Shown here: piece after piece, positions 9,618 through 31,093 of the stretch
Layout: each line of letters starts with the position of its first letter
Numbering within the stretch: the first letter of the stretch is position 1
Origin: Lachnospiraceae bacterium
GTDB lineage: Bacteria > Bacillota > Clostridia > Lachnospirales > Lachnospiraceae
Length of the DNA stretch: 33,947 bases
Reading direction: 5' to 3'
Assembly (NCBI GenBank): GCA_022800815.1
Contig: JAAWRC010000036.1
Coordinates: forward strand, 1 to 33,947
Made by a program: the position numbers and the translations under genes
The notes under the pieces: model-generated
The model's database searches: none
The model's input: the letters and a program-made list of their open reading frames with translations, nothing else
Told to the model about the DNA's origin: nothing

Positions 9618-9890
9618 ATATAAGTTAAAGGCGATGACGGAGAGAAGTAGTGCAAAAGATCGCTTCCAGTGAGCGGGGGACAGTGGGAACTCCGCAGAAT
9701 GAGTCTGCACGAATAACACTTTCGAGCCGCAATCTGAACCCTGCGAAGGAGCGGGCAGTAGGTGCGCCGCAGGCCGGGCGTTAACCGGCAGCCATGAGGG
9801 GACTGCCTACGGGCAGTAAATCAGGTGGTACCGCGGACAGAGGAGCTGTTCGTCCTGAAAGAAATTTTGAGGACGGACGGCTCTATTTTT
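9618..9890 (+). promoter_or_regulatory. T-box riboswitch controlling aspS
   Basis: The leader has the classic T-box parts: an AGAGAAGTAG element near the start of stem I (9641-9650), the conserved AGGTGGTACCGCG T-box at 9823-9835, and a terminator directly after it. T-boxes sense uncharged tRNA through a specifier codon in stem I and pairing of the tRNA NCCA end to the TGGN bulge, here TGGT. Aligning GAATAACACTTTCGAG (9711-9726) with known leaders puts the specifier at AAC (9715-9717), an Asn codon; I find no GAC at that place. The specifier reading is an inference from alignment by eye. Confidence 0.92.
9843..9890 (+). terminator. T-box intrinsic terminator ahead of aspS
   Basis: GAGCTGTTCGTCCT (9843-9856) pairs along its full length, with two G-U pairs, with AGGACGGACGGCTC (9870-9883), followed by TATTTTT. 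Formation of the T-box antiterminator upon binding uncharged tRNA would prevent this stem. Confidence 0.9.
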
Positions 9891-9943
9891 ATTACCTGAA
9901 CAAATCATCTAACTATTTTTATCCGGGAAAGGAGAGAACAACG

Positions 9944-11689
9944 ATGTCAGATATTTACCGCAGCAAAACCATGGACCAGATGGAAGAGGGCGACGTGGGA
10001 AAGGAACTCCGGCTTGCCGGATGGGTGGAAAACATCCGGGACCACGGCGGCGTGTCCTTCCTCGACCTGCGGGACATGTACGGGGTCATGCAGGTGGTGC
10101 TCCGAAATACGGAGCTTTTGAAGGGGATTCGCAAGGAGGAGTGTATTTCCGTGGAGGGCCTGGTGGAGCACAGGGACGAGGAAACCTACAATCCCAAGAT
10201 TCCCACGGGAACCATCGAGCTGGAAGCCCATAAGATTGACATTCTCGGAAAGGTCTACCGGGACCTTCCCTTTGAGGTGGCGGCCTCCAAGGAGATTCGG
10301 GAGGACGTTCGCTTGAAATACCGGTATCTGGACCTTCGGAACCACAAGGTGAAGGAGAACATCATATTCCGGTCCCAGGTGATCAACTATTTGAGGGAAA
10401 AGATGACGGAGATGGGATTCCTGGAGATTCAGACGCCGATTCTGTGCGCATCCTCCCCGGAAGGAGCCAGGGATTACATCGTTCCCTCCAGAAAATACAA
10501 AGGGAAATTTTATGCTCTGCCCCAGGCACCACAGCAGTATAAACAGCTCCTGATGGCCTCCGGATTTGACAAATATTTCCAGATCGCCCCCTGCTTCCGG
10601 GACGAGGATGCCCGGGCGGACCGTTCGCCGGGAGAATTTTACCAGCTTGATTTCGAGATGAGCTTTGCCACGGAGGAGGACGTGTTCCGGGTCGGCGAGG
10701 AAGTGCTCACGGCCACCTTTAAAAAGTTTGCGCCGGAGGGGTTCTCCGTCACGGAAGCGCCCTATCCGGTATTCAGCTACAGGGAGGCCATGGCCCTGTT
10801 CGGGACGGATAAGCCGGATCTCAGGAACCCTCTTCGCATCGTCGACGTGACGGAATTTTTCCAGAGATGCTCCTTCAAGCCTTTCCACAAGAAGACGGTG
10901 CGGGCCATCAGGGTCCATGCGGACCTTTCCAAGGGATTCCATGAGAAGCTGCTTGGATTTGCCCAGTCCATCGGCATGGGCGGTCTCGGCTATCTGGACG
11001 TGAAGGAGGACCTCTCCTACAAGGGCCCCATTGACAAATTCATTCCGGATGAGATGAAGGGGGAGCTGGCGGAGCTGGCAGGACTTTCGGGCGGCGACGT
11101 GATCTTTTTCATCGCCGACAATGAGGAACGGGCCTCCAAATATGCGGGGCAGATCCGAAACGAGCTGGGCGCCCGCCTGGACCTGCTGGAGAAAAACGCC
11201 TACCGGTTCTGCTATATCAATGACTTCCCCATGTATGAGCTGGACGAGGAGACGAAAAAGATCGGCTTCACCCACAACCCGTTCTCCATGCCCCAGGGCG
11301 GTTTGGAGGCCCTGAATGCGAAGGATCCGCTGGAGATTCTGGCTTACCAGTATGACATCGTCTGTAACGGCGTGGAGCTCTCCTCCGGTGCGGTGAGGAA
11401 TCATGACATGGACATCATGGAGAAGGCCTTCGAGATTGCGGGTTACGACAAGGCGACTTTGGAAAGCAAGTTCGGAGCCCTTTACCATGCCTTCCAGTTC
11501 GGAGCCCCGCCCCATGCGGGTATGGCTCCCGGTGTGGACCGGATAATCATGCTGCTTCGGAACGAGGAGAATATCCGGGAGGTCATCGCCTTCCCTATGA
11601 GCGGGACGGCCCAGGACCTCATGTGCGGCGCCCCGAACGAGGTGACGGAGCAGCAGCTCCGGGAAGTGCATATCAAGGTGAGGGAGTAA
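9944..11689 (+). CDS. aspS: Aspartyl-tRNA synthetase (bacterial type, possibly non-discriminating)
   Basis: The product has 581 residues. ATG 9944 follows GGAAAGGAGAG; the in-frame extension upstream to 9794 lies inside the T-box and is not coding. The N-terminal OB-fold anticodon-binding domain includes WVENIRDHGGVSFLDLRD (27-44). The class II motif 2 region FRDEDARADR sits near residues 221-230 and motif 3 GVDRIIML starts at 530. A bacterial GAD insertion domain fits the length. H34 replaces the Leu found at this place in discriminating enzymes such as that of E. coli; His is the residue reported for non-discriminating bacterial AspRS that also charge tRNA-Asn. This agrees with the apparent Asn specifier of the leader. 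GatCAB would then be needed to convert Asp-tRNA-Asn, but it is not in this window. Confidence 0.96.
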   Translation: MSDIYRSKTMDQMEEGDVGKELRLAGWVENIRDHGGVSFLDLRDMYGVMQVVLRNTELLKGIRKEECISVEGLVEHRDEETYNPKIPTGTIELEAHKIDILGKVYRDLPFEVAASKEIREDVRLKYRYLDLRNHKVKENIIFRSQVINYLREKMTEMGFLEIQTPILCASSPEGARDYIVPSRKYKGKFYALPQAPQQYKQLLMASGFDKYFQIAPCFRDEDARADRSPGEFYQLDFEMSFATEEDVFRVGEEVLTATFKKFAPEGFSVTEAPYPVFSYREAMALFGTDKPDLRNPLRIVDVTEFFQRCSFKPFHKKTVRAIRVHADLSKGFHEKLLGFAQSIGMGGLGYLDVKEDLSYKGPIDKFIPDEMKGELAELAGLSGGDVIFFIADNEERASKYAGQIRNELGARLDLLEKNAYRFCYINDFPMYELDEETKKIGFTHNPFSMPQGGLEALNAKDPLEILAYQYDIVCNGVELSSGAVRNHDMDIMEKAFEIAGYDKATLESKFGALYHAFQFGAPPHAGMAPGVDRIIMLLRNEENIREVIAFPMSGTAQDLMCGAPNEVTEQQLREVHIKVRE

Positions 11690-27194: not shown

Positions 27195-27266
27195 GCGCGA
27201 GTGGCTCAGTGGTGGAGTATCGCCTTGCCAAGGCGAGGGTCGCGGGTTCGAATCCCGTCTCGCGCT
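27195..27266 (+). tRNA. tRNA-Gly (anticodon GCC)
   Basis: The acceptor stem GCGCGAG (27195-27201) pairs perfectly with CTCGCGC (27259-27265), with T as discriminator. The anticodon stem TCGCC/GGCGA closes the 7-base loop TTGCCAA, placing anticodon GCC at 27227-27229, which reads GGC. The T arm is GCGGG-TTCGAAT-CCCGT. No CCA is encoded, as CGA follows. It is a single tRNA with its own promoter and terminator. Confidence 0.96.
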
Positions 27267-29185: not shown

Positions 29186-29986
29186 ATGGACCATGAGGAT
29201 GCGGGAGTTTATACCTCCTTTGCGGAGGTCTACGACGCATTTATGGACAATGTTCCCTATGAGGAATGGTGTACCTATCTTGTGAGACTTCTGCGGAAAT
29301 ATGGCTGTGAGGGCGGTCTGGTGGCGGAGCTTGGCTGCGGCACGGGAACCATGACGGAGCTTCTTGCGCAGGCAGGCTATGACATGATCGGCATCGACTG
29401 TTCGGAGGAAATGCTGGCCATTGCCATGGAAAAGCGGGCGGAGACGGGATCGGAGATCCTCTATCTTTTGCAGGACATGCGGGAGTTTGAGCTTTACGGC
29501 ACCGTGGCGGCGGTGGTGAGCGTCTGTGATTCGCTGAATTATCTCACGGAATATGAGGACCTGGTGCAGACCTTTCGGCTGGTCAACAATTTTCTGGATC
29601 CCGGAGGCGTGTTTCTGTTTGACCTGAATACGGAGTACAAGTACCGGGAACTCTTAGGGGAGCGGACCATTGCGGAGAACCGGGAGGATCAGAGCTTTAT
29701 CTGGGACAATTATTACGACGAAGAGCAGAGGATCAACGAATACGGGCTGACTCTTTTTATAAAGGAAGAGAGCGGCCTTTACCGGAAACAGGAGGAATTT
29801 CATTACCAGCGGGCCTATTCCCTGGAGGAGGTCAGGGAGGCCCTTTCGGAGGCGGGAATGGAGTTCGTGGACGTCTATGACGCCTTTACGAAGGAGCCGC
29901 CGAAGGAGACCAGCGGGCGGATCCATGTGATTGCGAGAGAACATGGCAAGCAATTGCGCAACTCCAAAACCTGGGAAGGATTCTGA
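29186..29986 (+). CDS. Class I SAM-dependent methyltransferase with an insertion-derived C-terminus
   Basis: ATG 29186 follows AGAAAGGAGC; the open frame upstream to 29024 crosses the promoter and is not used. The 266-residue product has an N-terminal SFAEVYDAFMDNVPYEEW segment, SAM motif I VAELGCGTGTMTELL, the acidic end of strand 2 in MIGIDCSEEML, and a VVSVCDSLNYL post-motif, as in Methyltransf_25-type enzymes. The acceptor is unknown. The last 11 codons (after REHGK) lie inside a palindromic element. Without that element the frame would read on as REHGKERRTEG and stop in an ATGA overlap with hslO, so the two genes were probably once translationally coupled. Confidence 0.9.
   Translation: MDHEDAGVYTSFAEVYDAFMDNVPYEEWCTYLVRLLRKYGCEGGLVAELGCGTGTMTELLAQAGYDMIGIDCSEEMLAIAMEKRAETGSEILYLLQDMREFELYGTVAAVVSVCDSLNYLTEYEDLVQTFRLVNNFLDPGGVFLFDLNTEYKYRELLGERTIAENREDQSFIWDNYYDEEQRINEYGLTLFIKEESGLYRKQEEFHYQRAYSLEEVREALSEAGMEFVDVYDAFTKEPPKETSGRIHVIAREHGKQLRNSKTWEGF
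29935..29946 (+). repeat. Left 12-bp direct repeat of the palindromic element
   Basis: GAGAGAACATGG, identical to 30161-30172. It falls inside the methyltransferase coding sequence (codons for Arg-Glu-His). It is read here as one copy of a target-site duplication. Confidence 0.65.
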
Positions 29987-30160
29987 CAATTGCATCCAGG
30001 AAAGGCCCTCTGCGCCATGGAAACGAGACCATGGAAAACGGGAGGGCCTTTGCCCGATCGGTTTCTGCGCTTATGGGCTCGTTGGAATGGTTGGTGCAGT
30101 AGGTTTTGGATGGATCAATTGTCAGAATCCACCCGGAAATTCCACGTTTCGCAATTGATT
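29947..30160. mobile_element. MITE-like palindromic element flanked by 12-bp direct repeats
   Basis: GAGAGAACATGG occurs at 29935-29946 and again at 30161-30172, flanking 214 bp. The ends are inverted: CAATTGCG (29951-29958) matches CGCAATTG (30150-30157), and GGATTCTGACAATTG (29978-29992) matches its complement at 30116-30130. The spacing between the two matching blocks is 19 bases on both sides. The centre holds a further stem, 30001-30010 with 30042-30051. No ORF for a transposase is present. The layout is that of a non-autonomous insertion with a target duplication. Confidence 0.65.
30001..30051 (+). terminator. Terminator-like hairpin in the centre of the palindromic element
   Basis: AAAGGCCCTC (30001-30010) pairs with GAGGGCCTTT (30042-30051), and an inner CCATGG pair strengthens it. 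Only TTT ends the stem, so termination would be weak. If active, it would lower hslO expression from the upstream promoter. Confidence 0.5.
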
Positions 30161-30172
30161 GAGAGAACATGG
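30161..30172 (+). repeat. Right 12-bp direct repeat of the palindromic element
   Basis: GAGAGAACATGG, identical to 29935-29946. It is followed by sequence that continues the methyltransferase frame to a TGA overlapping the hslO start. Confidence 0.65.
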
Positions 30173-30193
30173 GAAAGAAAGGAGAACAGAAGG

Positions 30194-31093
30194 ATGAACG
30201 GAGATTACATTGTCCGGGCGACGGCGGCGGGCGGGAGTGTCCGGGCCTTCGCGGTGACTTCGAAAAACCTCGTGGAGGAGGCGAGAAGGCGGCATGATAC
30301 CAGTCCGGCGGCGACGGCGGCCCTGGGGCGGCTTCTTACGGCGGGGGCCATGATGGGGGCCATGATGAAGGGGGAAAAAGATGTGCTGACTCTGCGGGTG
30401 AAGGGGGACGGACCCATCGGCGGGATCACGGTCACGGCCAATTCCCGTGCGGATGTGAAGGGCACGGTTATAAATCCGCAGGTGCTCCTCCATGCCAGGG
30501 CGGACGGGAAGCTGGACGTGGCAGGGGCTGTGGGAAAAGGGACTCTCACGGTGATCCGGGACATCGGACTAAAGGAGCCATACTCGGGACAGATCGACCT
30601 GGTGAGCGGGGAGATCGCCGAGGATCTTACCTATTATTATGCTCTGTCGGAGCAGACGCCCTCCTCGGTGGCCCTGGGCGTGCTCATGAACCGGGAGAAT
30701 ACGGTGCGGCAGGCGGGCGGGTTTATCATCCAGCTGATGCCAGAGGCGGAGGAGGACGTGATTGCGGGGCTTGAGAAACGTCTGGGAGAGATAAGGTCCG
30801 TCACGGCACTACTGGATGCGGGGGAGGACCCGGAGGAGCTTCTCTCCCACGTACTGGGGAACTTTGGTCTGGAGATATTGGACAGGATTCCCACCCGGTT
30901 TTTCTGCGATTGTTCTAAGGTGCGGGTGAAAAAGGCCCTGATCAGCGTGGGAAAGAAGGAGCTTGAGGACATGATCGCCTCCGGGGAGGAGGCGGAGGTT
31001 TCCTGCCATTTCTGCAACGAGCGCTACCGGTTTGAGGTTCCGGAGCTTGAGGAAATCTTAGAGATTCTGGAAAATCAGACGTCTGATAAATAA
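30194..31093 (+). CDS. hslO: Redox-regulated chaperone Hsp33
   Basis: ATG 30194 follows AAGGAGAACAGAAGG; the frame is open further upstream but crosses the palindromic element. The 299-residue product has the Hsp33 N-terminal fold (DYIVRATAAGGSVRAFAV) and the C-terminal zinc centre with C238-x-C240 and C271-x-x-C274, the full redox switch. Under oxidative stress these cysteines form disulfides, release zinc and activate holdase activity in the cytoplasm. No separate promoter is obvious between the methyltransferase and hslO, so transcription may depend on the upstream promoter through the insertion element. Confidence 0.95.
   Translation: MNGDYIVRATAAGGSVRAFAVTSKNLVEEARRRHDTSPAATAALGRLLTAGAMMGAMMKGEKDVLTLRVKGDGPIGGITVTANSRADVKGTVINPQVLLHARADGKLDVAGAVGKGTLTVIRDIGLKEPYSGQIDLVSGEIAEDLTYYYALSEQTPSSVALGVLMNRENTVRQAGGFIIQLMPEAEEDVIAGLEKRLGEIRSVTALLDAGEDPEELLSHVLGNFGLEILDRIPTRFFCDCSKVRVKKALISVGKKELEDMIASGEEAEVSCHFCNERYRFEVPELEEILEILENQTSDK

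Follow-up and report, generated by a model that had tools for sequence, protein, structure and literature searches.

Here we describe a 215-bp mobile element lodged between a SAM-dependent methyltransferase gene and hslO of a Lachnospiraceae bacterium, in the window (the whole stretch of DNA analysed, 33,947 nucleotides long, to which all coordinates refer). It is very probably a non-autonomous transposable element (MITE) moved by a DDE-type, IS1182-like transposase, and its group prefers sites about 16 nt upstream of a Shine-Dalgarno (SD) motif. The original prediction for this junction held that an insertion had split an overlapping gene pair and rewritten the end of the upstream protein, and that story is supported, most of the refuting conditions named for it having turned out in its favour. 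The insertion by itself is ordinary (a MITE); the interesting parts are the SD-addressed insertion and a mobile, covarying core that has no match in Rfam.

The methyltransferase gene (29186-29986, plus strand; Pfam Methyltransf_25, 8.5e-17) has its last 12 codons and its stop within the inserted element. The element (29947-30161, plus strand, its core strand reading toward hslO) is short, has no transposase of its own and is bounded by terminal inverted repeats at 29947-29962 (plus strand; family form about HAGGYRATTGCGAAAC) and 30146-30161 (minus strand), 16-bp blocks that are 88% complementary. Inside these lie two inner arms on the plus strand, GGATTCTGACAATTG at 29978-29992 and CAATTGTCAGAATCC at 30116-30130, which are 15 bp long, 100% complementary and paired with each other, the first of them covarying in the family (helices 3-4), and the spacing between outer and inner blocks is 19 bases on both sides. 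The direct repeat GAGAGAACATGG is read at 29935-29946 and 30161-30172, and a repeat search reports it as a 15-bp pair of 93% identity. The predicted palindromic segment between direct repeats, with its 15-bp arms and equal spacing, is confirmed; its predicted extent (29947-30160, 214 bp, with 12-bp repeats) was redrawn because the ends of the family are mostly [C/T/A]AGG...CCT[G/A], so that the window element is best drawn as 29947-30161 with an 11-bp target-site duplication, AGAGAACATGG, at 29936-29946 and 30162-30172 (no strand assigned), the left copy reaching 12 bp when the G before it is included. Either the element or the duplication may claim the G at 30161. The predicted fold of a 271-nt stretch with the element has an energy of -56.1 kcal/mol, while shuffled sequences average -34.1 (z -6.0; none of 200 shuffles as good). 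Downstream, the SD of hslO, AAAGGAG at 30178-30184 (plus strand, a 7/7 match), starts at offset 16 counted from the edge of the element, and hslO itself (30194-31093, plus strand; the Hsp33 chaperone; Pfam HSP33 4.8e-105; NCBIfam HslO 341 bits, cut-off 244) keeps both SD and start codon intact after the insertion.

When the insert is skipped, the flanks read through REHGKERRTEG to a stop whose TGA overlaps the hslO ATG, just as predicted. The predicted rewriting of the enzyme's end also stands, with a different count: the element contributes 12 codons, KQLRNSKTWEGF, and also completes the Gly codon before them with its third base; the earlier figure of 11 residues arose because the K of the element-supplied tail equals the K of the relative. 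All 11 genomes of the genus carry hslO, and in 10 of them, the window's own included, the methyltransferase gene is adjacent, the sole exception being G002, whose copy lies far from hslO. A tail of the QLRNSKTWEGF type is found in none of eight same-genus genomes with the adjacent pair, nor in the distant G002 copy. The closest relative, G004 (hslO 98% identical), has no element at the junction; its methyltransferase ends in REHGKHGKERRTEG and a stop, and the TGA overlaps the hslO ATG as ATGA. This is the empty site that had been hoped for, though an imperfect one, since the G004 junction keeps nine extra bases in frame, made up of CAAG (the first four bases of the element) and part of the duplication. 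We infer a later deletion of the same insertion, with the frame kept by luck, because the window copy shares the same unusual CAAG end. The possibility that the segment is an ordinary ancestral spacer, with no insertion at all, is refuted by this near-empty site together with the dispersed copies and target duplications described below; nothing spoke in its favour, and we regard it as practically out of the question. The coupled ATGA junction is certain only in G004 and is not general in the genus, since the G001 methyltransferase ends in REQGKERNG with its stop amid possible hslO starts, and those of G003 and G005-G009 stop short of hslO. The best explanation for the window is that the insertion exchanged the methyltransferase tail ERRTEG for QLRNSKTWEGF and undid the ATGA overlap at the hslO start.

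Other copies had been predicted, and 41 places in the window's own genome (G000), the window included, match the element at E <= 1.5e-15; the 40 further places are 71-97% identical to it, several being partial or at contig ends. Among 61 genomes, three are positive for the element, all in the same genus (3/11): besides G000 these are G004 and G010, both of which carry many copies. A terminal inverted repeat pattern allowing at most two mismatches has 97 forward and 89 reverse matches, against 7 and 5 for a reversed control (186 versus 12), with positions listed for 100 places. Paired ends delimit 82 elements in the examined loci of these three genomes; a called element may hold up to 6 mismatches over both ends together, and some may be spurious. 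By length, 51 are of 200-249 bp, 25 of 50-99 bp and 6 intermediate. The 25 minis of 50-99 bp hold little beyond the ends. A test for target duplication is passed by 26 of the 82 elements (8-19 bp, 20 of them 10-12 bp), where shuffled pairings pass 0.1 times on average and at most twice; the other 56 show no clear duplication.

A transposase-bearing element with similar ends, the kind of partner that the original prediction had proposed to look for, is present in the same genome. This IS is 1697 bp long (1.7 kb), with one end that matches the terminal repeat pattern fully and another with 2 mismatches, and its gene encodes 483 amino acids in which the only Pfam domains at E <= 0.001 are DUF772 (44 bits, cut-off 23.1) and DDE_Tnp_1 (20.6 bits, cut-off 23). 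The IS1182 family (IS1272) is the closest by profile, yet the transposase scores 62.8 bits against the IS1182 model NCBIfam NF033551, below the cut-off of 270, and for that reason we call it IS1182-like only. D163, D304 and E425, invariant in five transposase sequences, are a candidate DDE triad. The own-genome element may be dead or inactive, since its protein is missing about 25 residues that four relatives possess, and the IS has one divergent end and no recognisable target duplication. The IS was found in one of the 11 genus genomes, though G004 and G010 also bear MITEs, and no relative turned up in the G004 or G010 sequence searched. More widely, relatives at E <= 1e-60 occur in 32 of 397 Lachnospiraceae genomes, the window's own included, and in two plasmid records, from Butyrivibrio proteoclasticus B316 and Roseburia sp. 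831b; phage records gave no match at E <= 1e-40 and solved structures none at E <= 0.01. In G352, three of the four IS copies retain both ends and are flanked by duplications of 10, 12 and 10 bp.

The position of these elements relative to genes is far from random. A 6-7/7 match to AAAGGAG lies 4-34 nt from one edge in 59 of the 82 elements, with a peak at 16 nt, and 23 lack a 6/7 match; random positions in the same loci give such a match 11.7% of the time, and positions 12-120 nt upstream of strong-SD genes 21.7%. At offsets of 13-18 nt, 46 of the 82 have a 6-7/7 SD, as against 4.3% of positions upstream of strong-SD genes, and offsets of 14-17 nt hold 42 of the 59 strong matches. The SD tests rest on matching seven letters and on simple ORF calls. 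On those terms, once two orthologous sites are removed, 59 of 80 elements are accompanied by an SD of at least 5/7 and the start codon of an ORF of 50 aa or more, and 21 are not. The ISs behave likewise: their left ends, upstream of the transposase gene, face an AAAGGAG-type motif of at least 5/7 in 20 of 20 cases and of at least 6/7 in 17 (three ends reach only 5/7), at a distance of 15-17 nt in 16, while right ends face a motif of at least 6/7 in 1 of 19, the one-sided null being 39% for at least 5/7 and 7% for at least 6/7. Left ends were scored where they had at most 3 mismatches and at least 40 nt of flank, which leaves the weaker ends L136 and L145 unscored; L123 and L149 are one copy, counted once as L149, and of the two left ends at L119 the inner entered the count. 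In statistical terms the group has a preferred position, one edge lying about 16 nt upstream of AAAGGAG, which puts the target duplication just 5' of the SD and leaves the SD and the start codon untouched.

The same SD can also be occupied by different elements in different species. At hslO an element lies at offset 16 in both G000 and G010, the one in G010 belonging to a different subfamily and lying in the opposite orientation; the L046 site holds a 214 bp element with the duplication CTATTCTATCAC in G000 and a 67-bp mini with another duplication in G004; and at the L004 site, G004 bears the core of another subfamily without clear end repeats. All of our data are standing insertions, already filtered by selection, and 5' leaders would be among the few tolerant places in dense genomes, so it could be argued that insertion is loose, that only SD-sparing insertions persist, and that the targeting is merely apparent. 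Selection against harmful insertions must contribute. As the whole explanation it is unlikely, since the peak at 14-17 nt is narrower than tolerance predicts, the ISs turn the same end to the SD in every scored case, and one SD is found occupied by different elements; selection alone does not explain the sharp 16-nt peak or the one-sided orientation. A preference of the transposition machinery for the SD motif is the reading we retain. At 10 of the 80 sites an open frame of 120 aa or more enters the element from upstream, though a few of these may be spurious, and tail replacement as in the window methyltransferase probably recurs at other sites.

Placement at a fixed distance from a signal has parallels among known elements. 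TnGBS, ISLre2 and ISKra4-group elements insert 15-17 bp upstream of sigma-A promoters, mostly in one orientation, for which asymmetry of the inverted repeats is the proposed cause, and their transposases are Mutator-like (PMC3942029). The present group resembles them in consisting of DDE elements that lie some 16 bp from a signal for gene expression, at a fixed distance and mostly in one orientation; unlike them, it would target the SD, their target being the -35 promoter region, and it is DUF772/IS1182-like rather than Mutator-like. At the window site, the one site scanned for promoters, there are no promoter-like sites in 29850-30250, and the preferred distance of the group is to the SD. Some IS1182 members are said to target palindromes (PMC5678879), whereas the present group has SD motifs and, in the 8 ISs where a duplication is recognised, duplications of 10-12 bp each. 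BOX, RUP and SPRITE of Streptococcus pneumoniae, Correia, ERIC and Nezha are described in PMC3049150, in its passages on those repeats, as MITEs or short palindromes transcribed along with genes, bounded by terminal inverted repeats, with duplicated target sites and a strongly folded structure, several with ends like those of a resident IS, and the pneumococcal ones over-represented between convergent genes. Unlike BOX, RUP and SPRITE, the elements of the window's group sit just 5' of an SD, and those same passages mention no covarying core shared across a family and borne on arms of several kinds. Among the matches listed in the open-licence PMC literature, we found no precedent for insertion addressed to an SD or ribosome site, nor one on IS1182 targets, Lachnospiraceae MITEs or palindromic RNA, or MITE hairpins.

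The body of the element is a conserved structured core (29980-30128, plus strand) that matches covariance model R1 at 163 bits, the window copy being itself part of the model's alignment. RNAalifold on 48 full copies predicts a single long hairpin of 62 pairs, 31 of them with two-sided changes; the two-sided pair cells number 209 versus 68.6 in shuffled alignments (0 of 500 shuffles as high), with slid controls at 22-30. Pair counts lean toward the R1 structure in alignment A3, which was fitted to that model, and alignments A2 and A4 consist of hand-chosen copies. In the window's genus the core has 110 G-U versus 19 A-C cells, with symmetric transitions at unpaired positions, a comparison that uses the structure predicted for the plus strand and so favours G-U over A-C; folding of both strands, run as a counter-check, gives -68.7 kcal/mol for the plus strand versus -42.1 for the minus strand, the plus strand folding better in 39 of 48 single copies. 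Pair variants present in three copies or fewer show little wobble preference (28 G-U versus 19 A-C). We read this as a structure selected in the spreading copy lineage while inserted copies drift.

Beyond the genus, the covariance model found the core in 10 of 200 Lachnospiraceae genomes, the window's own included, representing 10 genera, with 2-14 matches in seven of the nine others; a stricter search of 391 Clostridia genomes found it in three, the window's own included, all of the same family. Both searches scored few candidates per genome, so that the copy numbers are lower bounds, and the RNA model match counts of 76, 66 and 102 can include antisense self-matches of the palindrome (10 of 61 in one set). 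The exact core pattern, in a collection of one genome per species, has 43 stretches, all in two MAGs, the window's own genome possibly lying outside that collection. In the other genera the core is carried mostly on different arms, often specific to a copy yet complementary, a comparison of arms and orientation that covers 37 of the 45 loci L196-L240 (L196-L202 and L238 left out); the eight copies examined in G140 are near-perfect palindromes of 259-400 bp. Two segments, CCAUGGARAUGAGAC and GGCUCAUYGGAAUG, which form an asymmetric internal loop, are nearly fixed across these copies, and over 44 of them 45 of 49 pairs have two-sided changes, with 719 cells versus 199.9. Rfam 15 gave no match at the gathering threshold for the window element or for 12 loci, 11 of them from other genera, and relaxed scans gave sub-threshold matches only, to microRNA models in two loci and to one lncRNA model in the window. 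The Rfam scan of the window also found a T-box and a tRNA elsewhere, outside the element.

Since other genera carry the core on other palindromic arms, we infer that it is structured cargo that serves the element's own spread or tolerance rather than hslO. The core may act as RNA. It is a doubtful but real possibility that it works instead as a single-stranded DNA hairpin, an attC-like substrate for a recombinase or linked to replication; a DNA hairpin confined to one strand would also be expected to accept G-T more readily than A-C. The arms of other genera differ strongly between copies while complementarity is kept, and the two strands there differ little (-62.4 versus -59.0 kcal/mol; 39 G-U versus 16 A-C), which favours DNA; in the window's genus, the far better fold of the plus strand and the excess of G-U over A-C with symmetric unpaired transitions speak against it, and RNA fits at least as well.

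The core also has an orientation relative to genes. The gene with the SD lies to its right in 30 copies and to its left in 6 (p 7e-5, de-duplicated), a further 14 being unclassified. In G209, whose ends are of a similar kind, each of the 8 copies looked at has a 6-7/7 SD on its right at offset 13-20. A bias of 30 in 36 classifiable copies together with a conserved structure is what one would expect of a cis-regulatory hslO leader, perhaps an attenuator, an RNA switch or an mRNA stabiliser, kept by host selection. That reading is nevertheless quite improbable: copies precede many different genes, G004 has no copy at hslO, the rare pair variants suggest that inserted copies are nearly neutral, 29850-30250 has neither a predicted terminator nor a predicted promoter, and in G116 the core is antisense to both neighbours in 5 of 7 copies. 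In the genera with other arms and ends orientation is mixed or antisense, with none common, and for this reason the idea that the bias reflects selection on a co-transcribed RNA is now weaker, and an asymmetry of the ends or of the subterminal sequence is an equally good cause. The original prediction placed hslO behind a terminator-like hairpin, and the hairpin is strong. This part is not supported: there are no terminator-like sites on either strand in 29850-30250, the element ends in its inverted repeat sequence with no run of T, and an intrinsic terminator before hslO is very improbable. No outward promoter is predicted in the element in that interval either.

The proposed mechanism would run as follows. 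A DDE-type transposase of the IS1182-like group would move the non-autonomous MITE, an IS of similar ends being its partner; the transposase complex, or a partner, would read the SD motif in DNA; and the target duplication would land just 5' of the SD, leaving SD and start codon intact. In a tight operon, where the upstream gene reaches as far as the SD, the insertion would replace the end of that upstream gene, which bears the cost because the SD and start are spared. The hairpin in the body would presumably serve the element itself. The full picture, in which an SD-addressed DDE group of ISs and MITEs (16 nt upstream, in a set orientation) goes together with a Lachnospiraceae-wide selfish hairpin, of structured RNA or single-stranded DNA, on several kinds of palindromic arms, is a plausible one that we put forward tentatively.

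The core is a nucleic-acid structure with strong covariation and no match in Rfam, found in several genera of one family, the Lachnospiraceae. If the SD is indeed recognised by this transposon group, it would amount to a natural address system that places DNA directly before genes without breaking them, and would parallel the promoter-addressed TnGBS and ISLre2 elements. It would also give a rule for the remodelling of operon junctions, by which upstream proteins gain new tails and overlaps are opened, while the start of the downstream gene survives.

Two further RNA features were matched in the window: a T-box leader at 9625-9860 (RF00230, 96.1 bits against a gathering threshold of 93), which adjoins a mechanically called ORF at 9794-11689, and a tRNA gene at 27195-27266 (RF00005, 67.4 bits).

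In the genome to which the window belongs (G000), a number of contigs (C2, C6, C32, C38, C48, C50, C51, C52, C56, C62 and C73) break off within or close to elements of the MITE family, and therefore the real copy numbers may be higher than those counted. Within the window genus, copies of the core, the conserved covarying hairpin inside the MITE, also stand without clear terminal repeats (loci L053/L015, L059, L060 and L246). At one orthologous site, G000 carries a 57-bp mini, one of the short elements with little besides terminal repeats, where the same-genus genome G004 carries a full copy (L082 versus L023), so minis may originate by loss of the central hairpin.

On the Butyrivibrio proteoclasticus plasmid pCY360 (L193), two copies of the IS1182-like element, the autonomous element whose ends are similar to those of the MITE, meet with their ends in tandem, and the short repeat CATTTATTTATAAA is all that separates them.

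The core also occurs in other genera. In G140 (L208-L213, L236 and L237), near-perfect palindromes 259-400 bp long carry it in their middle; the two arms vary from copy to copy and nonetheless keep their complementarity. In G116 (L214-L217 and L233-L235), most copies share a sequence beyond the palindrome, approximately CCGTAACCTTCCGT, on the left side only, and both neighbouring genes run antisense to the core in five of the seven; together, these two properties suggest that the G116 core copies are mobilised by a different agent.
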